Source: a virus. From it: 64,000 bases of DNA. The stretch spans positions 1 through 64,000 of the IMG/VR virus record IMGVR_UViG_3300047560_001714; one strand, given 5' to 3'. This document shows, one piece after another, positions 2,044-53,764 of the stretch. A program made the position numbers and the translations under genes. Under the pieces are notes generated by a model, which was not told the origin of the DNA, ran no database searches, and worked only from the letters and a program-made list of their open reading frames with translations. Within the stretch, counting starts at the first letter, position 1. Every line of letters begins with the position of its first letter.

Positions 2044-2592
2044 ATGAATTTAACAGGTAATTTAATAATAGCACCACCAGCGGTCAAAGGAAACTTCTGG
2101 TATAAAACAGTTATAATGATAACTGAACATCATACTAATGGTAGTATTGGACTCATGCTTAATAAAAAAAGCAATATGTCCGTCGCCGAACTTGGTGATA
2201 AGTTAGGATACGATATAGATATCGATGATTTTGTATATGTGGGTGGTCCTATAAGTAAACAAAGTCTTTCACTACTACATAGCAATGAATGGCGATGCAA
2301 AAACACTATGAGAATAAATGATCAATTTTCTATTAGTTCAGCTGATGATATGCTTCCTAGATTTGCTAAGTATGATATGCCAAATCAATGGCGAATGTTT
2401 GTTGGTGTATGTGGGTGGGCACCTTGTCAACTAGAAAATGAAATTAAAGGTGTTGAACCATATATTCATGACAATAGTTGGTGTATCTCAACTGGTAGTT
2501 CTGATCTAGTATATAACTCAGATGGTAAAGAACAATGGTGGAATGCACTAGAACAATCTAGTATGGAATTCGCACGTGGGATTCTATCATGA
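2044..2592 (+). CDS. YqgE/AlgH family protein (UPF0301, DUF179)
   Basis: A 182-residue protein closely resembling bacterial YqgE/AlgH: MNLTGNLIIAPP at the start, ITEHHTNGSIGLMLNK and VYVGGPISKQ. The family's biochemical role is not settled, though AlgH was first described as a regulator. I chose 2044 over an in-frame ATG at 2017 for two reasons: family members begin at this Met, and a TAAATA late-promoter core lies exactly 5 nt before it (2033-2038), so the mRNA would be leaderless. From 2017 the gene would overlap the transglycosylase gene by 14 nt. A host-like gene on a phage; the benefit is unknown. Confidence 0.75.
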   Translation: MNLTGNLIIAPPAVKGNFWYKTVIMITEHHTNGSIGLMLNKKSNMSVAELGDKLGYDIDIDDFVYVGGPISKQSLSLLHSNEWRCKNTMRINDQFSISSADDMLPRFAKYDMPNQWRMFVGVCGWAPCQLENEIKGVEPYIHDNSWCISTGSSDLVYNSDGKEQWWNALEQSSMEFARGILS

Positions 2593-3026
2593 AGAAATGG
2601 CTATGGAAAATTGGTGGTTTTGTTTTATTAGGGATTGCATACTTAGGTGTAATAACACCAGGACTGCCATTTAGTCCATTCCTAGTTGGCGCGGCGGTAT
2701 GTTTTAGTAAAGGTAGCCCAAAAATGCATGCTTGGATTTATAATCATAAGCTATTTGGACCTTTTCTTACTAACTGGGTTGACCATAAGGTATTTCCTAC
2801 TAAAATGAAATATACTATGCTGATTGTAATGGGGTCATCTCTTTTAATACTATGGCTTAAAACATACAACGTTAAAGCACTATTAGGTAGTGGTATCTTT
2901 ATGGCATTGGTAGCAATATGGGCATGGCGATATCCTGGTAGCCTCGATGAATATGAATATAGAAAATCTAACGGAAAACGCATAGGATGGTTTAAAGTTT
3001 CGTTAAATAACGATATACAACAATAA
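2589..3026 (+). CDS. DUF454 (YbaN-like) inner-membrane protein
   Basis: A 145-residue protein with several hydrophobic segments (residues ~8-38 and ~75-115). The signature is GVITPGLPFSPFLVGAAVCFSKGSPKMHAWIYNH, split here across the first membrane segment and the SSPRFHAWL-like motif of Escherichia coli YbaN. The family has no assigned function, although it often lies near heme or iron genes in bacteria. It overlaps YqgE by 4 nt (ATGA). It is unusual cargo for a phage; a role in membrane remodelling or lysis timing would be a guess. Confidence 0.7.
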   Translation: MKKWLWKIGGFVLLGIAYLGVITPGLPFSPFLVGAAVCFSKGSPKMHAWIYNHKLFGPFLTNWVDHKVFPTKMKYTMLIVMGSSLLILWLKTYNVKALLGSGIFMALVAIWAWRYPGSLDEYEYRKSNGKRIGWFKVSLNNDIQQ

Positions 3027-3903: not shown

Positions 3904-4125
3904 ATGAAATATGACTACTTGGCCGAACGCGCCCAATATCTTAGCCATACAAAAGAATTAGCAAAAGCACATTACGGCGACGTCGAAAATGAGGACGAAG
4001 CTGTGTTACAATTCTTAGCAAGAAGTGTTGCACATTCAAAAGAGGATGATGCAAGATTAACCGATGAGGTTGAACTTCTTAAAGATCGTATTACAAAAAT
4101 TGAAGATATTATCAACGCAAGATAA
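3904..4125 (+). CDS. Hypothetical small coiled-coil protein
   Basis: A 73-residue acidic protein ([15 protein letters not shown]...). The start at 3904 follows a GGAGGG ribosome site about 9 nt upstream; a longer frame from 3877 has none. The C-terminal half ([17 protein letters not shown]) looks like a short coiled coil. Its 3' end overlaps the 3' end of the oppositely oriented ALAS gene by 14 nt. Function unknown. Confidence 0.6.
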
Positions 4126-5305
4126 GTGCTGTTAACGCATTCACTAAATCTTCAATCATACCGTCTGTGTGAAGAGGGGTTGGGGCAAATCTCAATCGTT
4201 CTTCACCAACTGGCACCGTTGGATACTGTATCGCTTGTGCATATATATTATACTCATTCAGTAACAAATCACTAATTTCTTTCGCACGTTTTGCATTACC
4301 AATTTTCACTGGAACTATATGTGTAAAACTTTCCATAACTGGTAATCTTGCCTTTATCATTTTATATTTTAATTTAGCCGCACGTTCTTGATGTGCCATC
4401 CGTAATTCATGATGTTCTTTTAAATACTTTACGGATGCCAATGCACCAGCCGCGATAACAGGACTTAGACTAGTGGTAAATATAAATCCATCGGCGACAC
4501 TTCTTATTGCATCTATTACCACTGAATCAGCCGCAATATAACCACCTTGTACACCATACGCCTTACCAAGAGTACCATTAACGATATCTATTCGATGTTG
4601 TAATCCATATTCTTCCAAAAATCCTGCACCAGTTGCACCTCGTACACCAACCGCATGGACCTCGTCTATATAAGTAATTGCATTATACTTTTCTGACAAC
4701 TCACAAATCGTAGCAATTGGGCTTATATCACCTTCCATCGAATATACACTTTCAAATACAATACAAGGTGTTGCTCCTCGACTAACCGCGTCAACTAAAC
4801 ATTCCTCTAAATGATCCATATCATTATGTTTAAATATCTGTTTCGGTGCCCGACTATGGCGCATTCCATTAATTAAACTGTTGTGATTTTTACTATCACT
4901 TATAAATTCGATATTGGGGACAATCTTAGCTAATGCAACCAAACTCCATTCATTAGCCGTATACGCGGAACTGAATAACAATGCGCGTTCTTTTTTATGC
5001 AATGATGCTAACTCGTGTTCTAACGCAACATGATAATGACAAGTTCCTGAAATATTTCTAGTACCACCTGAACCTGCACCAGTCATATCTAATGCTGTTC
5101 TCATTGCATCTAACACAACTTTATGCTGACCCATTCCTAAGTAATCATTACTGCACCAATTAACTATATTTTTAATAGCATACGGTCCATACCATATTGC
5201 ATTTGGATACTTACCTTGTTCACGTAATATATCGTTGAATACTCTATAGTTACCGTTGTCTTTTAATGTGGTTATAATTTTTTGAAATGGTTCTTTGTTT
5301 ATCAT
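4112..5305 (-). CDS. hemA: 5-aminolevulinate synthase (ALAS)
   Basis: A 397-residue PLP enzyme of the alpha-oxoamine synthase family that condenses glycine with succinyl-CoA to 5-aminolevulinate, the first step of heme synthesis by the C4 route. Seen: [45 protein letters not shown] (Asp214 pairs with the PLP ring) and [13 protein letters not shown] (Lys248 holds PLP). These favour ALAS over its relatives BioF and KBL. Length is normal for the family (~400). The start at 5305 has no ribosome site but lies 4 nt after a TAAATA late-promoter core, so it is probably a leaderless late gene; a longer frame to 5569 would cross the divergent gene. ALAS points to an alphaproteobacterial host, and the heme could feed the heme oxygenase at 48.8 kb. 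Confidence 0.9.
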
Positions 5306-5309
5306 TTTG

Positions 5310-5327
5310 TATTTATGCCTAAATATA
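5310..5327. promoter_or_regulatory. Back-to-back divergent late promoters
   Basis: On the minus strand CATAAATAC (5318-5310) ends 4 nt before the ALAS start codon. On the plus strand CCTAAATATA (5318-5327) precedes the GGGAGAGG ribosome site of the gene at 5343. The two cores abut, forming an 18-bp bidirectional late promoter. Confidence 0.6.
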
Positions 5328-5342
5328 GGGAGAGGATTTAAA

Positions 5343-5558
5343 ATGGCAGCAAACGGCATATCCACACTTGCAACAAAAGCAGCAAGACAAAAAGCAAAAT
5401 TAGACTTAGCGCAAACTAAAAGAAGTACCACTGGAACTAATGGATATAGAACATTACATACATATGCATTGGCAGACTTACCAACACAATACTCTGGTAA
5501 CAATGTGATTGATAATCCAAATGTTGGTGGTCTTAAACAAGGCAGACCTTGGTCATAA
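5343..5558 (+). CDS. Small conserved phage protein preceding fibre genes
   Basis: A 71-residue protein ([19 protein letters not shown]...[26 protein letters not shown]). This kind of small protein, with an [12 protein letters not shown] core, is familiar from T4-like marine phages next to structural genes, but I know no function. The start at 5343 has a strong GGGAGAGG ribosome site. It is expressed with the fibre genes that follow. Confidence 0.65.
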
Positions 5559-15675: not shown

Positions 15676-18600
15676 ATGATTATTAACTTCCCTGCTCCAG
15701 GTTCTGAAACCGCAACACAGTTAAATACTGTTTTTGAAAACTTTACTGTACCGTCAAATAGTGGTGCATTATCGTATATTGATACTACCGATATTGAAAT
15801 TGGTACTCCGATTTACATTACAAATTATAAAGTATCCTTTAATGTCGCAGATTGGTATGCTAAAGAATTAAATATTTTATCTAGATCAGTAACAGTGCCT
15901 TCCGGCTCACAAACTTTAAATTTTAACAATAAGTCGGCTAGCTCGTTAATATTACAAGTTGGATATAAAATAAAAATAACCGACTTAGTTTTAAATACTA
16001 GCACAATTGTGACTATTTCTGCTGCTACTATATCAGGTATTACTATTCCAGTGATACCAGGATTTCCGCTATACGGTAACCGATCTATTAGGATTGTAAA
16101 CGTTACAACTGAAATATATCCAAAAACTGCGGTATCTCAAAAAAATGTATCATTGGGGTTAATAATTGCTAATATTATAGCACCTAGAGATAATTTGTTT
16201 TTGTCAGAAACTGCGCCATCAGTTCGCGGCATAAAACTACCGATTAGTCAATCCTTAATATCTAGCCAAATACCAGTTGTTCCGTCTAGACTTAACACAT
16301 ATTCTAATGTTAATATTAAAGGTGACATATTAGTCAATATTACTGATCAGTCAACTAATTTAAAAACTACCTCATCTAATATTATAAACTGGTATGCAAC
16401 AGAAGAGCCTATACTAAAAATTACCACAACATTGCCATCAACTAAAATACTGTATTTTTCTCAACAGTCATATATTCCGTTTTTTAAAGGCAGTACAGTA
16501 CGAGTATCAGCAACACATGGGTTTATTGGGACATTTACTGTATTAGACTGTTCACTGACATCAGTAACTTTGGATAACTGCGCAATCTTTGGTACTGTTG
16601 GAACAACTGTTGATAACATAACAACTACTGTGCGTAAGGTTAGAGATCAAGTTGAATTACCAGCACTACCATTACGTAATTTACTTTATAGTTTAGTTAA
16701 ATCCACTAGTAGTTTTATTGGAAGTACGCCCGTTGTTACACAATTTGAACCTGCAGTAATTAATCAATCACTATCTGTAAGAGAAGTTTCCCCGATAATA
16801 GTAAGTGCAAAACTAAGCACATACGATAACGTTGGTCTTACCGAAGGCGCAGCAGTTACTATTAATAGTATTGTTGAAAACATTTTACCAATTACCGGAA
16901 TGTTAAGTAATGCATCATCCAATGTAGTTAATTGGTATACTAATGAATTGAATATTCTTACTACTACATATACCAATCCTTCAACAGTGACATTGTTCTT
17001 TAATAAACCGACCACAATTGGATCGGATATTGTATTATCAAATTCACAAAGATCGTATATTAGTAAAATTACAGTAATATCATCAACTTTAAATAGTGTA
17101 ACTATTGCAAGACCGGCATTTGATATTAATTTTACCGGATTCTTTACTGGATTCTTTATCTATGTATCTTCAACATTAAATTTCACTTCCACATCATCTA
17201 TTCTGTATAATAGTGGCGGATTTGTTAAATTAAATGCACCAGGGTACTCAACAGTTGTACCTATAATTAGCGGAAATAACTCATCGATCACGGTTGAAGT
17301 CCCATTACAATCACTAACCATGAGTTATACTAGTTTTGAAAATGCAAGTTTATCAGTATATCCAAGTGTAATGGCGTCATCAATGTCGCATACTAGAGAA
17401 AAAATATTCTTAGTTTCCTCTAGAATCGCGGATACGAGCAATGCAGCATCGTTGGATAGAATTGCGTCAGCTGATATCGTACCTAAAATAAAATCAGTAA
17501 ACTTAATTGAACCGTTTTATAATGTTCCTAACTTTGTTGAAAATGTAATAGTATCAACTGGGTCAGTTGACACTGTAATACCAATTACGTTTAGTATACA
17601 GGCATACACTAATAACGTGGTACAATGGTACGAACAAGACCTTAATATCTTAAAGCAAACCGCAATTACACAAACCACATTAATACTATATTTTAATAAT
17701 TCGATTGGGGTTGTCGCGGGTTCAACTATTCGTGTAATAGAATATACCTCTAAACTATATAGATTGTTAACCGTTATTTCTGCAAATTCGTATAGTGCAA
17801 CTGTTGCGTATGATTCATCTCTTATAATTAATAATTTATATGTATATGTCAAAACTACCCAATCGTTTACACAAAAATCGTTTATTCCATATATTATTAC
17901 AGGTATTGTATCATTAAAATTACCAAATAGTACAATAGTGATTAATACAAGTATTATCAACAGTACATCATCATCGATTGAGTTTGTTAAAACATCAGTA
18001 ATAAATACTGCCGGGGCAACTATATCTGATGCTAATCCATCATACTATCCTCAAATTAAAGTTGCTACAACACAACTACCTTTAACCCCAAGAGAGAACT
18101 TATATTATGCGGTGGTATTGCCATATTATAGAACAGCACAAACTGTAAAACCGGCAACAGAAGAACCAAGAACATTTAGTAATTTTGGAAAAATATCTGC
18201 ATTTAAAACAGATCAGTATCAAGGCTTTATTGTTCCTAAGAATGATAAAGTTCAAACTGTTAAATTTACTGCATCTGCAACTAGTGTATCAGTCGGCGAC
18301 GTTACGTCATTACCTAAATTTTCAACAGTACCAACTGCAATAACTGCATCTGCAGTAGGACAAACAGTTTACAACGTACCAACTTGGTATGGGTTTGAAT
18401 TAAACATATTGCAACGACAGTCTACCGTAAGTTCAACAACACGATTGGTCTTTAATAACGCCAGCAGTTATAATTACTTATTTTCGGTCGGCGACACTGT
18501 AAAACTATACAGATTAAATTATTACGTGTATGTTGAAATCCTAAGCGCAACACTAACGACTATTACGTTTATAACTCCAAACGGATTTCCTAATGACACA

Positions 18601-41946: not shown

Positions 41947-44900
41947 ATGTCGATTTCGATAAACGGCAAGAATGCCGAAATACACGTATTTTCAACCCAC
42001 AACTTTTCAGGAAAATTAAACGCTAACCAAGTATTGTTGTATCTTACACCATTCAAGCTTGGGAAAGTATCAAGAAATTCATCAGCTGGTTTAACACCAG
42101 ATCGTGCTTTTAGGGAACGTTATAAAAATCAACGTTCATCAATGGCTGGAAATATGATAGCATCAGATTTCTTTGTCGTTGATAAGAATAAAGGTGAAGA
42201 ATATGATTATGATGAAGCATTTCGCAAATATATTCATATATTATTTAAAGCTGGATTAATTCCTTTCGATGCATTGTACAAAGGATATCAAAAACCTGGG
42301 CAAAATGCCGAAGCATTAATTAATTTTGACAGAGACAGCGACCTCGAAACACTTAAAGAAGTGCTCAGAAATTTCTGTGGACTTTCTGATTCGTTCAACT
42401 CAAAAGAAAGTATTAGCTGGAGATATAAACAGTTTGAGGATGCTATCGAAATTGTGGAAAAATTAGAAACACATTCTATTTGTTTATACGCAGCACATAC
42501 CGCGAGAGGGAAAACTAAAATTGCATCTGAAGTTGCCGCTAGATTATTACCAACTGGTGGTATTGTTTTAGTAACAACGCCTATCACTGATACCAAAAAA
42601 TCGTTTGAGGATAATATCAAAAACTATCATTTTGGTCCAAATAGAGATATGTCAGCAATATATCTCGATAATGCGGAATTCAATAAGTATTCTATTTCGG
42701 AATTACGTGATAAAGCAAATAATGGCGAATTAGTGTATGTTGTTCTAACAGTACAAGATGCTCGATATAACGATTCATATGATTTATCGGATGATGTGCT
42801 TCGTGAAAAATATGCGGAACTTTCTGATAACATTGATTTGTGGATTCGAGATGAACGCCATTTTCAATACAATGGTGATAAAACTAGTAAACGTCTAGCA
42901 AACATTGATGCACGATATATTCTTGACTTAACAGCAACACCATATAACGTATTAGATAAATATTCAGCAGATCAAATTATCGCTAGAACGTTACCTTGGG
43001 GATTACAACATAAAAATCATACAAAATTGCCAAATATTGCAATTAACGCAATTAACACACCATTTTGTAATGTAAATAATAATATTTCACATTTGTTTTC
43101 GACAGAGGAAGGGTTTACACCAATTAAACTATTCTTACGTCAAAATAATCAATTTTTGATGCAATCTGATATCGTTGAAACCTTTGATAGATTTTATCAT
43201 AGCCCAATAAGCCGTAATAAAAATCCATTAAGTATTATCAATGATCCAGAATTAAGTATGGTTTCAAAAAACTGTGGACTTGTTGTATTACCAGCTGGTC
43301 AAGGAAATGATAGTGCTAACAGTTATATTCCGGCGTTAGCAAAAATGTTAAACGCATCATCCAAAACATTTTTCATTGATAGTTATTCATTAGAAAAAAT
43401 GTGCCCAGATGATACCAGCATTGGCGATTATGTTGATACCTTAATTAGTAAACACGGTCGTGTGATTATTCTAACTTGTGGTAAATTTCTCACCGGTACC
43501 GATATTCCAGCTCTTGGACATATTGTACTGTTTGATAAAATGGATAGTATTTCTAGTTTTGAGCAATTACTAGGTAGAATGATTCGAAACTATGATGGAA
43601 AAGATGATGTAAAATTATATGCACTTTCACCAGGGGCATCATTACAAATAGTATTAGGTCGGTTAGCTAAGTCAAATGCTATATTAAATGAAGGCACCGA
43701 ATATGACTTTTTAGACTGCATTCCGTTAAGTGAATATGTGGCCGATAAATATGTTGTTGTTGATCCAGACACTATTATGGACTCGACCCGTGCTTGGTGT
43801 AAAGACCAAGTTAGTGTTACTTTATCAACGACACAATTGCAGTCAGCGTTAAAAAACATTGATCTTAGTTTTTTTCGTTATTCAAACTTACAGTCAGGAA
43901 TACAATCAACTGAAACCACGCTTACTGATGTGACTGGGGCGGTTGATAAAGTTCAAACCAAACCTGACCGTAAAGAATCATCGGATGACAAAATATCAAA
44001 CAATGATCTCGAAAAAGCAATTACTTTAATAAAAGCGATCTCATTAGAAGCATCTTGGGTCGCATATAGTATGAACAATTACAACTTTGAGGATGTATAT
44101 ACATCTGATGCAATCACTGGTATGTTTGGTTCCGATATCATTCAGCATTTACTTATCGTTATAAGTAATAGTGAAAAATTAGAACAACTTATCAGATCAG
44201 ATTTACTAAAAAAGCAGCAAGCATTTGCTGCGTTACCACCTAGAGAGGTTTATTCAGACCTTTTTAAAAATTCAGCAATGAAACAAAAACTAGGGTTAGT
44301 TTATGTCGATTTCGAGGTGGCCGATAAGTTAGTATCAGAAATCCCATTTGTTGACACGGATGAGTCGATAACTGTGGATCTGGTCGTATTTAATGCGTTA
44401 AATGGGACAATCCCACTGGCGATTAAAGATCGATACAGTAATGTTAATGTAACTTGTGTTGAAACATTCCCATATTTCAACGCACATTTATCACAACTCG
44501 GATTTAATGTAATTCCGTGGGATGATTTTATAACTATGAACAAGGAGGTTCATTTGAGTAAGTTTTCAGTATACGTGGGGAATCCACCATATCAACAACA
44601 AGATGGTGGGAATGGCTCTAGTGCTAAACCTATATATCAATTATTTGTAAATAAAGCAATCGAGGATGATCCCGAACACATCTTAATGATTACTCCGTCG
44701 AGATGGATGACTGGTGGTAAAGGATTAGATAAGTTTCGCGCACAAATGTTAGCCGATACTAGAATAAATGTGATTCATGATTACCATAGTTCAAAGGAAC
44801 TATTCCCAAATGTCGAAATCAAAGGTGGCGTTTGCTATTTTAGATGGGATCGAGATGGGTCAGGTGATTGCCAAATATTCCAACACTATTCAAATGGTGT

Positions 44901-45510
44901 TGTTTCTGAGGCAACCCGGCCATTAAAAGAACCCGGTAACAAGGTGTTTATTAGAAATAATGATGCAATTCAAATTTTGAAGAAAGTGCAAGCACTGAAA
45001 GAACAGTCAATGTTTGAAACAGTACACCCACGTAACCCATTTGGGCTTGTGAGTAATTTTACAAACTTTCACGAAAATGAATTTCCAAATTCAGTTAAAA
45101 CATACGCAAGACATAAAATCAGATATACCGATTATGCTGTGATTCCTAAAAATCACGAGTTAATTGAAAAGCATAAGGTTTTAGTTCCAAATGCCACTGG
45201 TTCTGGCGATGGTCTCAAAGACGTACTCAAACCAATATATGGCGAACCAGGGTCTTGCTGTACTGAAACATATATTGTAACTGGTGCATTTGATACCGAG
45301 GATGAAGCAAGAAATCTTATTTCGTATATCAATACTAAATTCTTTCATTTCATGCTTACCTTGAAAAAGAATACCCACGTAACATCTAGAAAAGAATATA
45401 TGTTTATTCCTGTTCAAGATTTTACAAAACCTTGGACCGACGAGGAATTGTTCAATAAATACGGACTAACTGATGATGAGGTCGCAAACTTGTTAGGGTC
45501 GGTAAGATGA
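41947..45510 (+). CDS. Superfamily 2 helicase fused to an N6-adenine methyltransferase-like half
   Basis: A 1187-residue protein with ribosome site AAAGGA. Helicase motifs: AAHTARGKTKIASEVAARLL (Walker A, ~183-202), DERH at 302-305 (Walker B), LDLTATPYN (~327-335, motif III), then TCGKFLTGTDIPALGHIVLF (motif V) and QLLGRMIR at 540-547 (motif VI). Residues ~850-1187 contain NPPY at 879-882, the catalytic motif IV of Eco57I-type adenine methyltransferases, then a target-recognition-like C-terminus. The segment before NPPY (VDLVVFNALNGTIPL) lacks the glycine-rich SAM motif I. The order resembles type ISP restriction enzymes or phage P1 DarB-like antirestriction proteins, but no nuclease motif is seen. 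The next gene supplies an intact motif I. Confidence 0.75.
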   Translation: MSISINGKNAEIHVFSTHNFSGKLNANQVLLYLTPFKLGKVSRNSSAGLTPDRAFRERYKNQRSSMAGNMIASDFFVVDKNKGEEYDYDEAFRKYIHILFKAGLIPFDALYKGYQKPGQNAEALINFDRDSDLETLKEVLRNFCGLSDSFNSKESISWRYKQFEDAIEIVEKLETHSICLYAAHTARGKTKIASEVAARLLPTGGIVLVTTPITDTKKSFEDNIKNYHFGPNRDMSAIYLDNAEFNKYSISELRDKANNGELVYVVLTVQDARYNDSYDLSDDVLREKYAELSDNIDLWIRDERHFQYNGDKTSKRLANIDARYILDLTATPYNVLDKYSADQIIARTLPWGLQHKNHTKLPNIAINAINTPFCNVNNNISHLFSTEEGFTPIKLFLRQNNQFLMQSDIVETFDRFYHSPISRNKNPLSIINDPELSMVSKNCGLVVLPAGQGNDSANSYIPALAKMLNASSKTFFIDSYSLEKMCPDDTSIGDYVDTLISKHGRVIILTCGKFLTGTDIPALGHIVLFDKMDSISSFEQLLGRMIRNYDGKDDVKLYALSPGASLQIVLGRLAKSNAILNEGTEYDFLDCIPLSEYVADKYVVVDPDTIMDSTRAWCKDQVSVTLSTTQLQSALKNIDLSFFRYSNLQSGIQSTETTLTDVTGAVDKVQTKPDRKESSDDKISNNDLEKAITLIKAISLEASWVAYSMNNYNFEDVYTSDAITGMFGSDIIQHLLIVISNSEKLEQLIRSDLLKKQQAFAALPPREVYSDLFKNSAMKQKLGLVYVDFEVADKLVSEIPFVDTDESITVDLVVFNALNGTIPLAIKDRYSNVNVTCVETFPYFNAHLSQLGFNVIPWDDFITMNKEVHLSKFSVYVGNPPYQQQDGGNGSSAKPIYQLFVNKAIEDDPEHILMITPSRWMTGGKGLDKFRAQMLADTRINVIHDYHSSKELFPNVEIKGGVCYFRWDRDGSGDCQIFQHYSNGVVSEATRPLKEPGNKVFIRNNDAIQILKKVQALKEQSMFETVHPRNPFGLVSNFTNFHENEFPNSVKTYARHKIRYTDYAVIPKNHELIEKHKVLVPNATGSGDGLKDVLKPIYGEPGSCCTETYIVTGAFDTEDEARNLISYINTKFFHFMLTLKKNTHVTSRKEYMFIPVQDFTKPWTDEELFNKYGLTDDEVANLLGSVR

Positions 45511-45957: not shown

Positions 45958-45986
45958 TTGACAAAATTTATTAATTATTTTATAAT
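45958..45986 (+). promoter_or_regulatory. Sigma70-type promoter for dnaK
   Basis: TTGACA (45958-45963), 17-bp spacer, TATAAT (45981-45986). A late-promoter core ATAAATAA (45991-45998) lies just downstream, and a small hairpin TGGCA-TAG-TGCCA (46030-46042) precedes the ribosome site. Confidence 0.8.
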
Positions 45987-46069
45987 AATGATAAATAAAA
46001 TTAGTAAACGCCGATTGGGTTTACAAAACTGGCATAGTGCCAAACAACTCGCTTAATAGGAGAATTACA

Positions 46070-47980
46070 ATGAGTAAAATTATAGGTATTGACTTAGGTA
46101 CAACAAATTCGTGTGTTGCCATTTTAGAAAATGGTGTTTCAAAAGTTATTGAAAATTCTGAAGGCACGAGAACAACCCCCTCAATCATTGCATATACTGA
46201 CAATGAAATCTTAGTTGGTGCTGCGGCGAAACGCCAAGCAGTTACTAACCCAAAAAATACAATTTATGCTGCAAAACGCTTAATTGGACGTAAGTTCGAA
46301 GAAGATGCAGTTCAAAAAGACATCTCACTTATGCCATATGCAATCGTCAAAGCCGACAACGGTGACGCTTGGATTGAAGCAAATGGTGAAAAACTTGCAC
46401 CCCCACAAATTTCCGCTGAAGTACTTCGTAAAATGAAAAAAACCGCTGAGGATTATCTTGGCACCGAGGTCACTCAAGCTGTTATTACTGTTCCTGCTTA
46501 CTTTAACGATTCACAACGCCAAGCAACAAAAGATGCTGGTCGTATCGCTGGATTAGAAGTATTACGTATTATCAATGAACCAACTGCGGCGGCATTGGCC
46601 TATGGTGTTGACAAAACTGATAATAAAGATCGTAAGATTGCGGTTTACGATTTGGGTGGTGGTACATTTGACATCTCAATCATTGAAATCGCTAACATCG
46701 ATGGTGAAAAACAAATCGAGGTATTATCAACAAACGGTGATACTTTCTTAGGTGGTGAGGATTTTGATCAAAGACTAATGGATTATTTGGTCGATGAATT
46801 CAAAAAAGACACCGCTGTCGATTTAAAAAATGATACGATGGCATTGCAACGATTAAAAGAGGCTGCTGAAAAAGCAAAAATCGAATTATCGTCATCAGAA
46901 CAAACTGATGTAAATTTACCATACATCACAGCAGATGCATCTGGTCCAAAACATCTAAACGTCAAAATCACTCGTGCTAAATTCGAAGCACTGGTTGAAG
47001 ATTTGATCGAACGTAGTATTACACCATGTAAAATCGCTATCAAAGATGCTAAAGTTAGTTTAAGTGATATCGATGAAGTTATTTTAGTCGGTGGTCAAAC
47101 TCGTATGCCAAAAGTACAAGCGGCGGTTGAAGCGTTGTTTGGAAAATCCCCACGTAAAGATGTTAATCCAGATGAAGCTGTCGCGGCTGGTGCAGCTGTA
47201 CAAGGTGCGGTATTAGCTGGCGATAAAACAGACGTGTTATTGTTAGACGTAACACCATTAAGTTTGGGTATTGAAACAATGGGCGGTGTATTCACCAAAT
47301 TGATTCAAAAAAATACCACTATCCCAACTAAAGCAAGTCAAACCTTCTCGACAGCCGATGATAATCAACCAGCGGTAACTATCAAAGTTGCGCAAGGTGA
47401 ACGTGAGTTATATCAATATAACAAACAGCTCGGTGAATTCAACCTTGACGGTATCAACCCAGCACCCCGTGGTGTACCACAAATTGAGGTAACGTTCGAT
47501 ATCGATGCAAATGGTATTATGCACATTTCAGCATCCGATAAAGCAACTGGAAAGAAAAACCATATTACTATTAAATCAGATTCTGGCTTATCAGAGGACG
47601 AAATTACACGTATGGTTAGAGATGCTGAGGAAAACGCGGAGGCTGATAAAAAAGCTAAAGAATTGATTGAAGCTCGCAACCAAACAGAAGCACAACTTCA
47701 TAGTATTCAAAAAGATTACAATGAAGTTAAAGATGAACTATCTGATGATGAAAAAGCGGCGATTGATGAAGCTATCACCAACGTGAATACTGCGGTAACT
47801 AGCGATGATATTGAGAAAATGAAAGAGTCAACATCAAAGCTAATGGAATCAGCAACCCCAGTTTTTGCTAAAAAGCAAGAAAAAGCCTCAGCACAAGAGC
47901 CAACATCATCCGATGAGGTTCCTATCCAAGCTGAGTTTACTGAGGTTGAAACCCCAAATTCTACTGAAGATAAAAAATAA
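46070..47980 (+). CDS. dnaK: Hsp70 chaperone DnaK, full length
   Basis: A 636-residue DnaK, the same length as the bacterial protein (E. coli 638). Start 46070 has AGGAGA 7 nt upstream. ATPase domain: [79 protein letters not shown]. Linker: [19 protein letters not shown]. The substrate-binding domain and helical lid follow, with a short acidic tail ending in EDKK. All nucleotide-binding residues I can check are kept, so it should be active with host DnaJ/GrpE, neither of which is in this window. Full-length DnaK is rare in phages. It likely helps folding of the very large virion proteins. Confidence 0.97.
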
Positions 47981-47997
47981 TACCAAGTGTAATATTG

Positions 47998-48028
47998 CCC
48001 CTAGAATGGGTATTCTAGGGGTTCTCTT
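47998..48028 (+). terminator. Rho-independent terminator after dnaK
   Basis: CCCCTAGAAT and ATTCTAGGGG form a 10-bp stem with loop GGGT, followed by TTCTCTT. Confidence 0.8.
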
Positions 48029-48045
48029 GTAAAGGATTTTTAGTT

Positions 48046-48474
48046 ATGACTCCAACAGTAAAGGTAATCGATACCGCAACATTAGCACAATTAAGCAGAG
48101 CACTTATCGGATTTGACCGTATATTTAATAATATAGAATCAAGAAACTCATCGAGTAATTATCCACCATATAACATTCTTAAATATGATGAAAACAACTA
48201 CGAAATTGAAATCGCGGTTGCCGGATATGATAGAGATGAAATCGAGGTATTAGTCGATCAAGATCAATTAATAATTCGTGGTGACCGTCGTAAAGATGAA
48301 GACCCATCATTGTATATTCATCGTGGATTGGCATCACGCGCATTTGAAAAGTCATTTACACTTCCACAATATATGGAAGTCGTAAATGTAGGGTTGACGA
48401 ATGGAATTTTATATGTTAAACTGCTCCTCGAAGTTCCAGAAACGCTTAAACCGCGTATTTTAAAAATACAATAA
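48046..48474 (+). CDS. Small heat-shock protein Hsp20 (IbpA-like)
   Basis: A 142-residue protein with an N-terminal FDRIFNNIES region (as in IbpA) and an alpha-crystallin domain (ILKYDENNYEIEIAVAGYDR, EIEVLVDQDQLIIRGDR, RAFEKSFTLPQYMEV, NGILYVKL), ending PRILKIQ. It holds unfolded proteins without ATP and hands them to DnaK, whose gene is just upstream. Hsp20 is common in T4-like cyanophages. Ribosome site AAAGGA. Confidence 0.93.
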   Translation: MTPTVKVIDTATLAQLSRALIGFDRIFNNIESRNSSSNYPPYNILKYDENNYEIEIAVAGYDRDEIEVLVDQDQLIIRGDRRKDEDPSLYIHRGLASRAFEKSFTLPQYMEVVNVGLTNGILYVKLLLEVPETLKPRILKIQ

Positions 48475-48484
48475 TTTTTTCAAC

Positions 48485-48510
48485 TGAGGGGGATTTCCCC
48501 CTCACCTTTT
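48485..48510 (+). terminator. Rho-independent terminator or attenuator
   Basis: TGAGGGGG and CCCCCTCA form an 8-bp stem with loop ATTT, followed by CCTTTT. It separates hsp20 from clpS; some read-through seems needed because no promoter is visible before clpS. Confidence 0.7.
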
Positions 48511-48525
48511 ATGGGGATACACATT

Positions 48526-48828
48526 ATGTCTACTGACATCGCAGTTAAAGAACGCACACGAATTAAAATCTCAGAACCTAAAAAATGGAGTGTAATCATT
48601 TTAAATGATGACCACACCTCATTTGAATTTGTTATTTCCATGTTAATTCAAGTTTTCAACCATTCTATCGATTCGGCAAATGAAGTAACAAAATCAGTAC
48701 ACGAACAAGGCGCTGGTGTAGCTGGGGTTTATGATTTTGAAATTGCGGAGGTTAAAGCCGTTGAAGCAACTAAAATGGCACGTGAAAATGGGTTTCCATT
48801 GCAAATTAAAATCGAAAGCGAGGGTTAA
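48526..48828 (+). CDS. clpS: ClpS, adaptor of ClpAP protease
   Basis: A 100-residue protein. Core: VIILNDDHTSFEFVISMLIQ, SVHEQGAGVAGVYDFEIAEV and KARENGFPL-like KMARENGFPLQIKIE, matching the N-degron pocket and ClpA-binding face of bacterial ClpS. The start at 48526 has GGGGAT upstream; an ATG at 48511 overlaps the terminator. ClpS directs N-degron proteins to ClpA and inhibits ClpAP degradation of ssrA-tagged proteins. That is notable because this phage also encodes a tmRNA. It is followed directly by heme oxygenase (0 nt gap). Confidence 0.9.
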   Translation: MSTDIAVKERTRIKISEPKKWSVIILNDDHTSFEFVISMLIQVFNHSIDSANEVTKSVHEQGAGVAGVYDFEIAEVKAVEATKMARENGFPLQIKIESEG

Positions 48829-49362
48829 ATGAGTTTAAAAGAAATCACAAAAGAATTGCACACAGAAGCCGAGAAATCGGCTTTTGCTAAACTATTGTTA
48901 AGTGGTAATATTACCAAAGAAAAGTATGTGCAATACTTAACAGAAATGCAACCAATTTATCAGTTGATTGAAAAACACGCATCCGCACAAGGGATATTAG
49001 ACACCTTGCCTGGTATTAAACGTGCTAATGCTATTTTAGAAGATATCAGAGAGCTGTCAGATGTTGTACCATCCTCTGTGTTAAAACCAACCGTTGATTA
49101 TCTTATATACTTAGATAAATTATGTGAGGACGTGGCGACTAAACACCTAATTAAAGCTCATCTATATGTCAGACATATGGGCGACTTATTTGGTGGTCAA
49201 TTCATTGCAAAAAAAGTTCCGGGTTCTGGTAAGTTTTACCAATTTGATAACCCAGATGAACTGAAAGTTGCCATTAGAGAGTTGCTCACAGATGATCTAG
49301 GGGATGAAGCGAAAGTTGCATTCCAATGGGCAATAAAAATTATGGATGCGCTCGGTGAGTAA
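48829..49362 (+). CDS. Heme oxygenase
   Basis: A 177-residue heme oxygenase. His11 in TKELHTEAEKSAF is the proximal heme ligand, and YVRHMGDLFGGQFIAKK (~112-128) is the distal helix with the flexible Gly residues and Asp119, as in bacterial enzymes. It opens heme to biliverdin, CO and iron using reduced ferredoxin or a similar donor. It is somewhat shorter than typical bacterial forms (~200). It starts right after the clpS stop with a GAGGG ribosome site, and its end overlaps the bilin reductase gene by 17 nt, so the two are co-expressed as a pathway. Confidence 0.92.
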   Translation: MSLKEITKELHTEAEKSAFAKLLLSGNITKEKYVQYLTEMQPIYQLIEKHASAQGILDTLPGIKRANAILEDIRELSDVVPSSVLKPTVDYLIYLDKLCEDVATKHLIKAHLYVRHMGDLFGGQFIAKKVPGSGKFYQFDNPDELKVAIRELLTDDLGDEAKVAFQWAIKIMDALGE

Positions 49363-50032
49363 CGTTTGGGATACCTTAGTATCAATTCAAATACATTTTG
49401 AAAAAATGATTGGTACTAACGGTATAGAAATCAACGAAAAAGGCATGGATAGATTCAACCAACCTGGTTGGATTAACCGTGTCTGGACCAGTGAAGCATT
49501 TCGTAGAGCGCACATTGATGTTGTGGATGCTAGAGAGAGTAAAGGGTTGTGGATGATGCATTGTTGTATTTTTCCACACACTCATAATGCGGCACCAATA
49601 TTTGGGTTTGACGTTGTTGCAGGTCGAAATAAAATCACTGGCTGTTTTTATGATTTTAGCCCATCTGGTTCATCAAATCACGAAATGGCGGAATGGTTTG
49701 ATGAAAGTGTTAAAGATCTTGAGTGGAAAAAGACACGCGAATTACCACCTTGGGCTGAACGTATTTTTAGTCATAATATGATTGCGGCAAGTAATGTTCA
49801 ATCAGATGATGAATTAAAACAGATCCACGAAATGGCAACATCTGGTATTGATTTCTATCTACAACAAGTTGGTACGTATAACAATACCACAAAAGATGTT
49901 ACCGCGTTGCATAACTTTTATGCACAGAACCAAAAACAAAATCCACATACCCCAAAAGTTATGGCAGCACTTGGGTTAGATGAGGATGATGTTAAGGTGT
50001 TCATCAATGACTGTCTGTTCCCAGAACTCTAA
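49346..50032 (+). CDS. Ferredoxin-dependent bilin reductase (PcyA/PcyX-like)
   Basis: A 228-residue protein. FRRAHIDVVDARESKGLWMM, HCCIFPHTHNAAPIFGFDVV (Asp89 in the position of the catalytic Asp) and AGRNKITGCFYDFSPSG align with PcyA-type enzymes (LQILHMVLFP, PIFGCDLVGGRGQISAA). LPPWAERIFS matches PEWGDIFS. PcyA reduces biliverdin to phycocyanobilin. The phage variant PcyX, described from metagenomic phages thought to infect alphaproteobacteria, makes phycoerythrobilin, and context makes PcyX likely here. Which bilin is made cannot be read from sequence. The start could be GTG 49355. It ends at a terminator. Confidence 0.88.
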   Translation: MRSVSNVWDTLVSIQIHFEKMIGTNGIEINEKGMDRFNQPGWINRVWTSEAFRRAHIDVVDARESKGLWMMHCCIFPHTHNAAPIFGFDVVAGRNKITGCFYDFSPSGSSNHEMAEWFDESVKDLEWKKTRELPPWAERIFSHNMIAASNVQSDDELKQIHEMATSGIDFYLQQVGTYNNTTKDVTALHNFYAQNQKQNPHTPKVMAALGLDEDDVKVFINDCLFPEL

Positions 50033-50054: not shown

Positions 50055-50092
50055 AAAGCTCCTTCTTAAATAATTAAGAAGGAGCTTTTTTT
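50055..50092 (+). terminator. Terminator overlapping the csgF ribosome site
   Basis: AAAGCTCCTTCTTAA (50055-50069) pairs perfectly with TTAAGAAGGAGCTTT (50074-50088), followed by T residues: a 15-bp terminator for the operon ending in the bilin reductase. The right arm contains AAGGAG, the ribosome site of csgF at 50093. Confidence 0.85.
50067..50072 (+). promoter_or_regulatory. Late promoter core inside the terminator hairpin
   Basis: TAAATA spans the end of the left arm and the loop. A transcript starting ~6 nt downstream (near 50078) would carry GAAGGAG free of its pairing partner. Confidence 0.5.
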
Positions 50093-50572
50093 ATGACTAA
50101 AATTATAGGTTTATTACTTATACTTGTTTGTTCGCAAGCACTATCCGCCGAATTGGTACATCAATTTAATAGTCCATCATTTAGTGGTATTGGTTACAGT
50201 GCGCACGTACTTACTATAAACCAATTAGAAAATCAAGCGGCAGATAAAAATAAAGCATTAGCTGATTCTATAAAAGCAAAGGCGGAGGCGGCAGCATTGA
50301 ATACCCCCGAAGCTAAATTCTTGGCTAACTTAGAATCTAGAATATACTCACAACTCGCAAAACAATTAACTGATACTATGTTTAGCGAGGGAAATACTTG
50401 TAATATCCCAGGAACAGTTTGTGGCTCAATACCAGATTTGGGCGGAAACCATGTTACATGGAGTTTGGGCGCAGGGACTGATCAAGGAATGATAATCATT
50501 GATATTGTCAATAACTCTAACCCAGCGCAAACAACGTCGATGAAGGTACCATCCGGTTCATTTTACTTTTAA
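50093..50572 (+). CDS. csgF: Curli assembly protein CsgF-like
   Basis: A 159-residue protein with a signal peptide (MTKIIGLLLILVCSQALSAE). The mature N-terminus ELVHQFNSPSFSGIGYSAHV follows the CsgF pattern ELVY.P.NPSFGG; CsgF inserts this segment into the CsgG pore. A helical middle (NKALADSIKAKAEAAALN) and a beta C-terminus follow. It sits immediately before csgG (2 nt gap). In bacteria CsgF couples curlin secretion to surface nucleation. Expression probably starts from a late promoter inside the upstream hairpin. Confidence 0.85.
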   Translation: MTKIIGLLLILVCSQALSAELVHQFNSPSFSGIGYSAHVLTINQLENQAADKNKALADSIKAKAEAAALNTPEAKFLANLESRIYSQLAKQLTDTMFSEGNTCNIPGTVCGSIPDLGGNHVTWSLGAGTDQGMIIIDIVNNSNPAQTTSMKVPSGSFYF

Positions 50573-50574
50573 CT

Positions 50575-51405
50575 ATGAAAAAAATTATACTATTATTCGT
50601 TATATTAATATTACAAGGGTGTGCAACAACAAGTGAATTGCATAAATTAATTACTGGCGATCAATTCGATGATCCAGTGATTGAAAAGCAATCTTATCTT
50701 ATCAAAGACGAAAGTTGGATTGCACCACCAACAAATGGGGCAATTCCAATTGCAGTGTATGGGTTTGTGGATAAAACTGGGCAACGTAAAGCTGTCCCTA
50801 ATATCGCATCCTTAAGTTCGGCTGTTACACAAGGTGCAGAAAGTTATTTGATTAAGTCGTTACAAGACGTGGGTGAATCAAAATGGTTCACTGTGGTTGA
50901 ACGAGTTGGTCTGGATAATTTAATTAAAGAACGACAAATGATTCGTCAGACTAGAGAACAATTCCAAGGCCGTGATGCACAACAATTACCAGCAATGACA
51001 TTTGCGGGAATAATTGCCGAAGGTGCTATCGTCGGTTATGATTCTAACACAACCACTGGTGGTGCTGGCGTCAGATTATTTGGAATCGGTGGTGAAACTC
51101 AGTATCAAAGCGACACAGTCACTGTTAGTTTAAGAACAGTATCAGTTACGTCTGGTGAAATATTAACATCAGTGTTAGTAACAAAAACAGTATTGAGTTA
51201 CGTGGATAAAGCTGGTGTATTAAAATTTGCTGCATCAGGTACATCAGCAATAGAGGCCGAGGTCGGTGGAAGTATAAATGAAAGTATAAACAGAGCAACC
51301 AATAAAGCGATCCAAGCTGCAGTACTCGATACAATTAAAGAAGGGGCGCGTAAAGGTCACTGGGCAATTCAATCTGTTCCAAATCCTTACGTATTAAACC
51401 ATTAA
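50575..51405 (+). CDS. csgG: Curli secretion pore lipoprotein CsgG
   Basis: A 276-residue protein with a lipoprotein signal and lipobox LQGC at residues ~13-16 (ILILQGCATTSEL), so it is anchored in the outer membrane after acylation. CsgG motifs: IPIAVYGFVDKTGQRK, VVERVGLDNLIKERQMIRQT, FAGIIAEGAIVGYDSNTTTG, VTVSLRTVSVTSGEIL. CsgG forms a nine-fold channel for curlin secretion. Length matches the bacterial protein (277). In a phage it could serve surface-fibre export or make the outer membrane leaky. Confidence 0.92.
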   Translation: MKKIILLFVILILQGCATTSELHKLITGDQFDDPVIEKQSYLIKDESWIAPPTNGAIPIAVYGFVDKTGQRKAVPNIASLSSAVTQGAESYLIKSLQDVGESKWFTVVERVGLDNLIKERQMIRQTREQFQGRDAQQLPAMTFAGIIAEGAIVGYDSNTTTGGAGVRLFGIGGETQYQSDTVTVSLRTVSVTSGEILTSVLVTKTVLSYVDKAGVLKFAASGTSAIEAEVGGSINESINRATNKAIQAAVLDTIKEGARKGHWAIQSVPNPYVLNH

Positions 51406-51441
51406 GGAGCATTGGCAAATAATATTGTTCAATGATAATAA

Positions 51442-52221
51442 ATGAAAACATTAACATTATTTCTACTTTCGATTTTATTTTTTTCTAACGCGTATGGCGC
51501 GGCAGCTGGTGAAAATAAAGTATATATAGAGCAAGCTGGTAACACCAATACCATTACAATAGACCAAATAGGTGGTGGTAATATGGTCGGAGGTACAACC
51601 TCAACAACAATAGCCGTGAATGGCGCAGGGGTGACAACTATCACACCTGCTAGTCCTAGTTCATCTAACTACGCGTTGATAACTGGGAATACAAATAGTT
51701 TAACATTAAACCACTTAGGTGATACTAACTGGGCTCAATATGTCATTACTGGGAGTAATAATATCTACTCTAATAAAATTACTGGGAATAGTAATATATC
51801 AATTCTAACAATCGGAAAAGTATTACCAACTCCTATGGCAAATCTTAGAAATAATATAAATGAAGAAATAATTGGTAATACTAATTATACAATCCAATCT
51901 ATTTCCAATGATGATATTATTAGTAACTTAAAAATAACCGGCGATCAAAACCAAGTTACCACAGACTTAGGTTCTAGTTTTGGAAAAGTAAATACAGTTA
52001 TCACAGGCGGAAATAATATTCTATTCAATACTCAAGCTGGTGTTGCTACTGGTCATGATCTTACTCAAGATATTCTAGGCAGTTTTAACTCAATATCAAC
52101 TCAACAGTTGGGTGTAAATGATTCCATAATAGATATTAAAGTTAATGGCGATCATAATACGATTACAGTTCATTCAAGTGATAGCACTATTGCGTCACCA
52201 TTAATTGCAACACCACGATAA
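51442..52221 (+). CDS. Secreted curlin-repeat-like protein 1
   Basis: A 259-residue protein with a signal peptide (MKTLTLFLLSILFFSNAYGA). The mature part holds degenerate curlin-like strands: VYIEQAGNTNTITIDQIGGG, then units of the form GNTN/GSNN/GDQN about every 20-25 residues. This is the Q-x-G-x-x-N ladder of CsgA/CsgB in a looser form. It probably forms a beta-solenoid exported by CsgG. No Shine-Dalgarno is close to the ATG. Its stop overlaps the FecR-domain gene start by one base. Confidence 0.7.
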   Translation: MKTLTLFLLSILFFSNAYGAAAGENKVYIEQAGNTNTITIDQIGGGNMVGGTTSTTIAVNGAGVTTITPASPSSSNYALITGNTNSLTLNHLGDTNWAQYVITGSNNIYSNKITGNSNISILTIGKVLPTPMANLRNNINEEIIGNTNYTIQSISNDDIISNLKITGDQNQVTTDLGSSFGKVNTVITGGNNILFNTQAGVATGHDLTQDILGSFNSISTQQLGVNDSIIDIKVNGDHNTITVHSSDSTIASPLIATPR

Positions 52222-53306
52222 TGTACATTATAGCCTTATTATTTTTGTTTATTTCTAATTCATACGCTGGTATTGGTACCGTTGTTGATGCAACTGGTAC
52301 CAATTGCACAATAGAGCGTAGTTCTAAAAAAATCTCTGGTGAAAAAGGGGCGATAGTTGAAAGTATGGATACCTATATTACTGGTAGTTGTGTAAGTAAT
52401 ATAACTTTTGACGATGGTACCAAAGTTAAAGTAAACGAAAATAGTAAGCTATTCATAGATGAATTTGTTTACGATCCAAAACAATCAGATGCAGGTAAAC
52501 TAGCTATCAAAGTCGGAATGGGTACTGTTCGTTATGCATCTGGTCAAATAGCTAAAAACAATCCACAAAAAGTTGATATAAAAACACCGACGGCAGCAGT
52601 TGCAGTGCGTGGTACTGACTTTACTATGACTGTCGATGAGATTGGTCAAAGCTTAGTGGTACTTGTTCCAAGTTGTAAAGATGAAAAAGATGTAAAAAAG
52701 TATGAACTACAAGAAAACACTTGCCAAGTTGGTAGAATAATAGTTTCAAATGGTATGGGTTCTGTTGAACTATCCGAGGCATACCAAGCTACTTTTGTTA
52801 ACAGCAATGTGGTGCAACCAACACCACCAGTTGTAATCAATATGACTGAGGGGCAAATTGGGAATAATCTTATCATATTGAAACCAGCGGAAATTCAAAA
52901 AGCGGTTAAAGAAAATACCAGAACCCAAAAAGACTCCGAGAATGATGCAGCTGAGGATGAAACCGCCAGACGCTCAACTAGTATGGCACTGAAATCCGCC
53001 GAACTAAATGATGCAAAAATATCCTCATCTAAAAAACTACAAATTGATAAATCTTGTAACCCATCCTCATCAGTATGTGTGGCTTGGGAAAATAAAGATG
53101 CCGAGGGGCAAGCAAAAGGAATTGGGGTAGCGTATAGATTCCAACCGGATGAACATTATACTGAAATAAAGACACAAGGTTATACCTCTAATACCTCAAT
53201 ATCAATAACACAAAACGATGAATTCGCATCGACCGTCATAGGGGATGGTGCCGCCGGTGGAAACATCATTACTATCAAACAACAAAATGGAGTGTTAAAT
53301 AAATGA
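52221..53306 (+). CDS. Secreted FecR-domain protein
   Basis: A 361-residue protein with a signal peptide (MYIIALLFLFISNSYAG). Residues ~20-150 form a FecR-like beta domain (GEKGAIVESMDTYITG, FDDGTKVKVNENSKLFIDEF, KVGMGTVRYASGQ, KTPTAAVAVRGTDF). The region around 270-361 contains an acidic/charged segment and ends NDEFASTVIGDGAAGGNI, again curlin-like in composition. FecR domains in exported proteins often accompany adhesins. Its place between two curlin-like genes, with one- and four-base overlaps, suggests it belongs to the fibre system, perhaps as an anchor or nucleator. Confidence 0.75.
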   Translation: MYIIALLFLFISNSYAGIGTVVDATGTNCTIERSSKKISGEKGAIVESMDTYITGSCVSNITFDDGTKVKVNENSKLFIDEFVYDPKQSDAGKLAIKVGMGTVRYASGQIAKNNPQKVDIKTPTAAVAVRGTDFTMTVDEIGQSLVVLVPSCKDEKDVKKYELQENTCQVGRIIVSNGMGSVELSEAYQATFVNSNVVQPTPPVVINMTEGQIGNNLIILKPAEIQKAVKENTRTQKDSENDAAEDETARRSTSMALKSAELNDAKISSSKKLQIDKSCNPSSSVCVAWENKDAEGQAKGIGVAYRFQPDEHYTEIKTQGYTSNTSISITQNDEFASTVIGDGAAGGNIITIKQQNGVLNK

Positions 53307-53764
53307 GACATTTGTTACTTTTTCTTTTATGCTCTATATGTTACGCTGATAATTTAACATCAGTTAACCAAATTGGTAATAGCAACGATATTGAAATTAA
53401 CCAAATAGGTGATGTAAATAATATATCGTATTCTGGTAATGGTTCCTTTAATACCGTCAATGTTGAACAAATCGGTAATCAAAAAACTGCAAACTTAACT
53501 GTTATTAATAATAACAATATCATAGACGTATCACAAAGTGGTACTGGGATTGATTCGGCAACAATAGCGGTTAGTGGTGGACTTAAAAATATATCAGTAA
53601 CACAAGAAGGTTCCGGGTCACATTCAGCAACCATAAACTTATCTGGAACACCTATTACATTTGATCTAACTCAATCTGGAGTTAATAATCAAACATTTTC
53701 AATCACGGCAAATTGTGCCCTAGTGGGCGGTTGCGCCGCAGTTCAAGTCATTCAAAATCAATAA
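53303..53764 (+). CDS. Secreted curlin-repeat protein 2 (CsgA/CsgB-like)
   Basis: A 153-residue protein with a short signal peptide (MRHLLLFLLCSICYAD). It has clear curlin repeats: VNQIGNSNDIEINQIGDVNN, VNVEQIGNQ, IDVSQSGTGIDSATIAV, ISVTQEGSGSHSATINL, FDLTQSGVNNQTF. Each has the S/V-x-Q-x-G-x-x-N pattern of amyloid-forming CsgA/CsgB units. Two Cys lie near the end (ANCALVGGCAA). It is the best candidate for the amyloid subunit of the cluster. It overlaps the FecR-domain gene by ATGA and ends near a late promoter. Confidence 0.82.
   Translation: MRHLLLFLLCSICYADNLTSVNQIGNSNDIEINQIGDVNNISYSGNGSFNTVNVEQIGNQKTANLTVINNNNIIDVSQSGTGIDSATIAVSGGLKNISVTQEGSGSHSATINLSGTPITFDLTQSGVNNQTFSITANCALVGGCAAVQVIQNQ

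Follow-up and report, generated by a model that had tools for sequence, protein, structure and literature searches.

Why phages whose hosts are, as far as known, non-cyanobacterial produce bilins is the question raised by this genome, which combines a gene for the first step of heme synthesis with genes that degrade heme to a bilin. The DNA analysed here (the window) comprises bases 1-64000 of an IMG/VR virus record of 187,935 bp. This record contains 216 ORFs, a minority of which were scanned. Three features of the window bear on the identity and genomic setting of the ALAS gene:

2589..3026, plus strand: DUF454 (YbaN-like) membrane protein (PF04304, 92.7 bits)
4112..5305, minus strand: 5-aminolevulinate synthase (ALAS, viral AlaS), 397 aa, assigned by TIGR01821, the tree and catalytic residues
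62328-62749, plus strand: phage-encoded permuted tmRNA, scoring with the Rfam betaproteobacterial model; tag ANDSNFEFYTLDNIDLDVMAA

Identity and ancestry of the phage ALAS

The original prediction placed an ALAS gene at 4112-5305. The position was right; the gene lies on the minus strand, with its ATG at 5305-5303 and its stop at 4114-4112, and the plus-strand frame at this place is full of stops. ATG 5305 is supported as the predicted start by the relatives, which open with the same MI(N/D), several of them with a stop only a few codons earlier. The TIGR01821 equivalog model matches the protein at 558 bits (cut-off 338.6), and the top PDB match is the ALAS of Rhodobacter capsulatus (2bwn, 433 bits). 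The PLP lysine Lys248 is present together with Asp214, His217, His141, Ser189 and Thr245, and all six residues are invariant across 22 phage ALAS. We rejected as extremely improbable the notion that the gene is a KBL/BioF-like acyltransferase wrongly called ALAS: the fold family is common to these enzymes, and the BioF and glycine C-acetyltransferase (KBL) models do match at up to 316 bits, but each stays under its own cut-off while the ALAS equivalog lies well above, and the tree puts the gene inside ALAS with support 100. By contrast with these viral ALAS, the matches found in the isolate-phage collection are KBL/BioF-type genes (27-36% identity), located in records that resemble contaminating or transduced host DNA.

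Phylogeny was the check named for the ALAS assignment, and placement with BioF or KBL was not seen. For the tree, a quick search with SH-aLRT support and no bootstrap, phage ALAS were thinned at 88% identity to 49 sequences and set beside 39 cellular ALAS, mainly alphaproteobacterial, and 17 KBL/BioF-like sequences. The window ALAS and the 48 other phage sequences formed a single clade (SH-aLRT 100), nested within the ALAS group amid alphaproteobacterial sequences and apart from KBL/BioF. Identity to the window ALAS ranges from 65 to 100% among phages, from 46 to 57% for cellular ALAS and from 26 to 35% for KBL-like proteins. Because the phage sequences form one clade, a single old transfer would fit better than repeated acquisition from hosts.

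The window protein has R340 at the position of R. capsulatus His342, which is involved in heme feedback, and ends at residue 397, before Cys400, a further residue tied to heme feedback. Nevertheless, we consider a heme-feedback-free reading weak, because the absence of this histidine is not specific to phages: it is present in 2 of 29 sampled alphaproteobacterial ALAS and missing from the other 27.

The record is T4-superfamily-like and a relative of giant phages. It encodes a family-B DNA polymerase resembling those of jumbo phages, along with T4 gp9/10-like and clamp-loader proteins. The polymerase is nearest to those of jumbo phages of Sinorhizobium (46%) and Agrobacterium (42%), an affinity that hints at an alphaproteobacterial host, and the tmRNA match hints at a host other than alphaproteobacteria. 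Hence, the view of ALAS as the controlling step of heme synthesis in alphaproteobacteria, from which the original prediction started, need not apply, as the tmRNA fits the betaproteobacterial Rfam model. No heme-pathway enzyme was found among the scanned ORFs, a minority of the 216 that included those whose length (about 280-400 aa) would suit HemB, HemC, HemE and HemH. With this share of ORFs covered and a record that may be incomplete, the middle of the heme pathway is likely supplied by the host. Elsewhere in the record, several radical-SAM/SPASM proteins cluster at positions 105067-114087 (L027), possibly forming a peptide-modifying locus. Furthermore, helicase (ResIII) and Eco57I-type methylase domains are joined in a 1187-aa protein of the window (41947-45510), which may be a single-chain restriction-modification enzyme or serve in anti-defence.

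The start region of ALAS

Upstream of ALAS, the window holds two divergent boxes and a neighbouring gene:

5310..5315, minus strand: TAAATA, late-type box of ALAS, separated from the ATG by 4 nt (CATAAATA-CAAA-ATG), no Shine-Dalgarno
5320..5325, plus strand: TAAATA, divergent late-type box of the plus-strand neighbour, whose leader bears a Shine-Dalgarno (GGGAGAGG)
5343..5558, plus strand: 71-aa gene (ORF) divergent from ALAS

On the ALAS strand, the start region reads GGCATAAATACAAAATG. Among 78 distinct phage upstream regions, which are not independent samples, 62 have a TAAATA that ends 4-9 nt 5' of the ALAS ATG; shuffled sequences gave 0.55 and control hexamers 0-8, and the box is missing from that place in 16 regions. 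Shine-Dalgarno-like motifs before phage ALAS are no commoner than chance (4/78 vs 3.3 when shuffled). A divergent box pair, typically TATTTAGCGTTAAATA, occurs in 57 of the 78 regions, and on its opposite side a Shine-Dalgarno sequence and then an ATG for the neighbour gene follow in 50/61. This late-type TAAATA box close to the ALAS ATG, without a Shine-Dalgarno and usually with a divergent box, is a new observation.

The same word is among the strongest before the phage's own ORFs, where it was counted 43 times against 8.6 expected, usually at a distance of 16-40 nt. A minor class of 12 ORFs (controls 1-6) has the box 4-6 nt from the start, including a tail-fibre-like gene at 15676. The protein scan, which covered a minority of the 216 ORFs, turned up no T4-type late sigma factor (gp55), so that the interpretation of the box depends on how enriched and conserved it is. 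It could be argued that TAAATA is a mere AT-rich spacer and that another promoter reads the gene, given that the genome is AT-rich and that ALAS and a convergent gene overlap at their 3' ends, which makes transcription there complex. We find this unlikely in view of the shuffled and hexamer controls, the narrow spacing and the enrichment before other ORFs; moreover, the late-type box precedes CsgF in 45/45 loci. The ALAS message is probably leaderless and made from a late-type promoter. The late, leaderless-looking start that had been proposed from this single genome is therefore conserved across phages, as far as motifs can tell.

The heme-to-bilin operon and its linkage with ALAS

As originally predicted, heme oxygenase (HO) and a ferredoxin-dependent bilin reductase (FDBR) lie on the same genome about 44 kb from ALAS. 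They are encoded on the plus strand, in the following operon:

45958..45986, plus strand: perfect sigma70-type promoter TTGACA-17-TATAAT (12/12), 5' of the HSP70-HO operon
45992..45997, plus strand: late-type box GATAAATA, 5' of the HSP70-HO operon
46037..47980, plus strand: HSP70/DnaK, 647 aa (PF00012, 870 bits)
48046..48474, plus strand: HSP20/IbpA-like protein
48511..48828, plus strand: ClpS adaptor
48829..49362, plus strand: HO (PF01126, 62 bits)
49346..50032, plus strand: FDBR, PcyX type (PF05996, 65 bits)
50055..50088, plus strand: intrinsic terminator after PcyX, 15-bp stem and T tail

The order HSP70-HSP20-ClpS-HO-FDBR is fixed in 69/69 distinct loci. The FDBR scores 237 bits against PcyX_EBK42635 (5owg) and 59 bits against PcyA. 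Its D58 and D89 are the equivalents of Asp55 and Asp86 (PcyX numbering), D58 being the PcyX-specific Asp. Because the enzyme is nearer to PcyX than to PcyA and keeps this residue, its product is probably phycoerythrobilin.

The original prediction had the HO operon expressed earlier than ALAS and regarded the difference in timing as puzzling. The perfect sigma70-type promoter of the window agrees with early expression; however, a late-type box is present as well, and all 63 loci compared have a TAAATA no more than 110 nt from HSP70 (12 when shuffled). We dropped the clean contrast between an early HO and a late ALAS because of this conserved box. With both elements before HSP70, the operon of the window phage probably has early and late promoters. 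A TAAATA box of their own was found for FDBR in 0/69 loci and for HO in 12/69. The timing puzzle looks softer than claimed, with ALAS predicted to be late only and HO early and late here and late-type in relatives.

Several further observations concern this region. The HSP70 and HSP20 leaders of relatives share a covarying hairpin, with double changes at 7/9 pairs, and between it and the start they carry TTCTTGCTTA...AGGAG (examples in L079:8625-8686 and L127:6646-6714). The L079 HSP20 leader scores 32.4 bits against Rfam ROSE_3 (E 4.6e-4), below the gathering cut-off of 43, and for this reason we call these leaders ROSE-like only; they look like ROSE-type RNA thermometers. Rfam thermometer models gave no match on the window HSP leaders, and the window HSP20 leader (47988-48060) shows a strong hairpin only. 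A short conserved hairpin of the form GGGGGAGGAAACTCCCCC lies between HSP20 and ClpS, for instance in L127 and L077 and at 48485-48504 of the window. Besides the HSP70 operon, a DnaJ-like protein is encoded at record position 140716-141561. Directly 3' of PcyX, at 50093-53764, are curli genes (CsgF, CsgG, FecR-domain, curlin repeat), which have been described in pelagimyophages (PMC7029224).

FDBR relatives were found on 290 matched IMG/VR stretches and ALAS matches on at least 542, the latter with broad patterns whose count takes in related acyltransferases. The Pfam HO model PF01126 matched none of 23 ALAS records, mostly because the contigs were too short on the relevant side; the bilin reductase was taken as the marker instead, with longer records. 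ALAS was present in 10/20 long FDBR/HO records, and in 8/10 records selected by FDBR whose flank reached 59 kb or more. Conversely, FDBR was present in 7/7 records selected by ALAS that extend 47 kb or more on the expected side; ALAS records with a shorter flank often had no FDBR, and none had it on the side opposite to the expected one. Wherever both genes were present (20/20 records, the window included), ALAS and FDBR lie on opposite strands and point apart, with 26-70 kb between them, although in one record of 353 kb this layout holds only across the record ends. Control relatives picked by the ribonucleotide reductase NrdA had ALAS in 0/10 and FDBR in 3/10. These counts are not independent trials, because the records are related. 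The co-occurrence suggested by the original prediction is non-random, and we report as new that ALAS travels with the heme-to-bilin operon from a distant, opposite-strand position.

ALAS has another recurrent neighbour. In 10/10 loci with a 5 kb flank, DUF454 is encoded no further than 2.4 kb from the 3' end of ALAS; it is immediately 3' and on the same strand in 5 of these 10, and its orientation varies elsewhere. The loci cited for this linkage are the window, L006, L011, L012, L014 and L017. Only 1 of 95 FDBR loci has DUF454. This protein is a possible functional partner in tetrapyrrole or iron metabolism.

The best-surviving alternative is that ALAS and HO/PcyX are independent auxiliary genes, found in common genomes through phage kinship only. 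ALAS would then sustain heme for late respiration, and HO/PcyX would act with the chaperones in iron release or stress. To this alternative we give somewhat less than an even chance. It draws on the separate, opposite-strand transcription units, on the locking of HO to HSP70-HSP20-ClpS rather than to ALAS, and on two records (G038 and G039) where HO/PcyX occurs and ALAS does not, although 94-110 kb of flank is available. Against it stand the presence of FDBR in 7/7 ALAS records and of ALAS in 8/10 FDBR records with sufficient flank, across records of 64-400 kb, and the lack of ALAS in the NrdA-selected relatives. The conserved layout argues that ALAS, HO and PcyX are retained as a set despite the distance.

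We favour with good confidence the joint reading, namely that a functional ALAS, acquired once and expressed late from a near-leaderless message, feeds the host porphyrin pathway for the benefit of the phage HO and PcyX. The gene would have been taken once, by an ancestor of this phage group, from an alphaproteobacterial-type source and retained since. The stand-alone gene would be read from a T4-type late promoter, whose closeness to the ATG would leave the mRNA little or no leader. By analogy with characterized enzymes, the window ALAS is expected to convert glycine and succinyl-CoA to 5-aminolevulinate. This product would enter the host porphyrin pathway and, with flux through the host's middle steps, keep up the heme supply. 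From their separate operon 26-70 kb away, with its own promoters, HO and PcyX would convert heme to biliverdin and then probably to phycoerythrobilin. A more elaborate version, which we put forward tentatively and consider less likely than not, is a two-module programme. One module would be HO/PcyX within the HSP70-HSP20-ClpS operon, driven by promoters of sigma70-like and late type, to which relatives add ROSE-like leaders; the other would be the distant, opposite-strand ALAS, leaderless and late, from its divergent pair. Heme destruction and replenishment would thus be controlled separately, by temperature or stress. Such a separable layout, with heme degradation tied to chaperones and a separate late, leaderless message for ALAS, predicts the timing of heme breakdown and refill.

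Comparison with known systems

T4 late promoters have the consensus TATAAATA. The window genome resembles T4 in having a NATAAATA/TAAATA box, enriched, at phage genes. It differs in that the exact TATAAATA is not enriched, its count being uninformative and the shorter TAAATA with its position informative. The ALAS box differs further in lying 4-9 nt from the ATG without a Shine-Dalgarno, mostly in overlapping divergent pairs. A leaderless late class in T4-superfamily phages, if conserved, would bear on phage translation control.

Phage ALAS genes accompanied by hemO and pcyX are not new: they were published in 2024, with a functional test in E. coli. The main text of that study (Wegner et al., 2024; PMC11480375) describes viral AlaS (valaS), often with hemO and pcyA/X, in phages of marine and fresh waters. 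There, valaS occurs in a cassette, in a broken cassette or alone, belongs to aquatic myovirus-like phages and forms its own clade, and an E. coli strain auxotrophic for 5-ALA is rescued by a homolog from a freshwater phage. The window ALAS is likewise a phage Shemin-pathway ALAS in a clade of phage sequences, with hemO/pcyX in the genome. It differs in its position, 44 kb off and on the other strand, and in its T4-superfamily-like record, the DNA polymerase of which is nearest to those of jumbo phages. The main text of PMC11480375 contains nothing on phage promoter type, leaderless starts, HSP70-ClpS or DUF454 linkage.

The bilin genes allow a similar comparison. The freshwater CB_2 reductase is a PcyA without the PcyX-specific Asp (PMC11480375), whereas the window FDBR keeps this residue, as does the oceanic phage PcyX (PcyX_EBK42635, 5owg). 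The closest isolate is the hemO-FDBR pair of Pelagibacter phage Mosig (46%), in which HO adjoins the reductase as in the window; the isolate-phage search gave no ALAS match for Mosig. Unlike PcyX_EBK42635 and Mosig, the window pair belongs to an operon headed by HSP70, HSP20 and ClpS. Altogether, the window ALAS is a further member of a published kind of phage gene, and the new detail concerns its layout and promoters.
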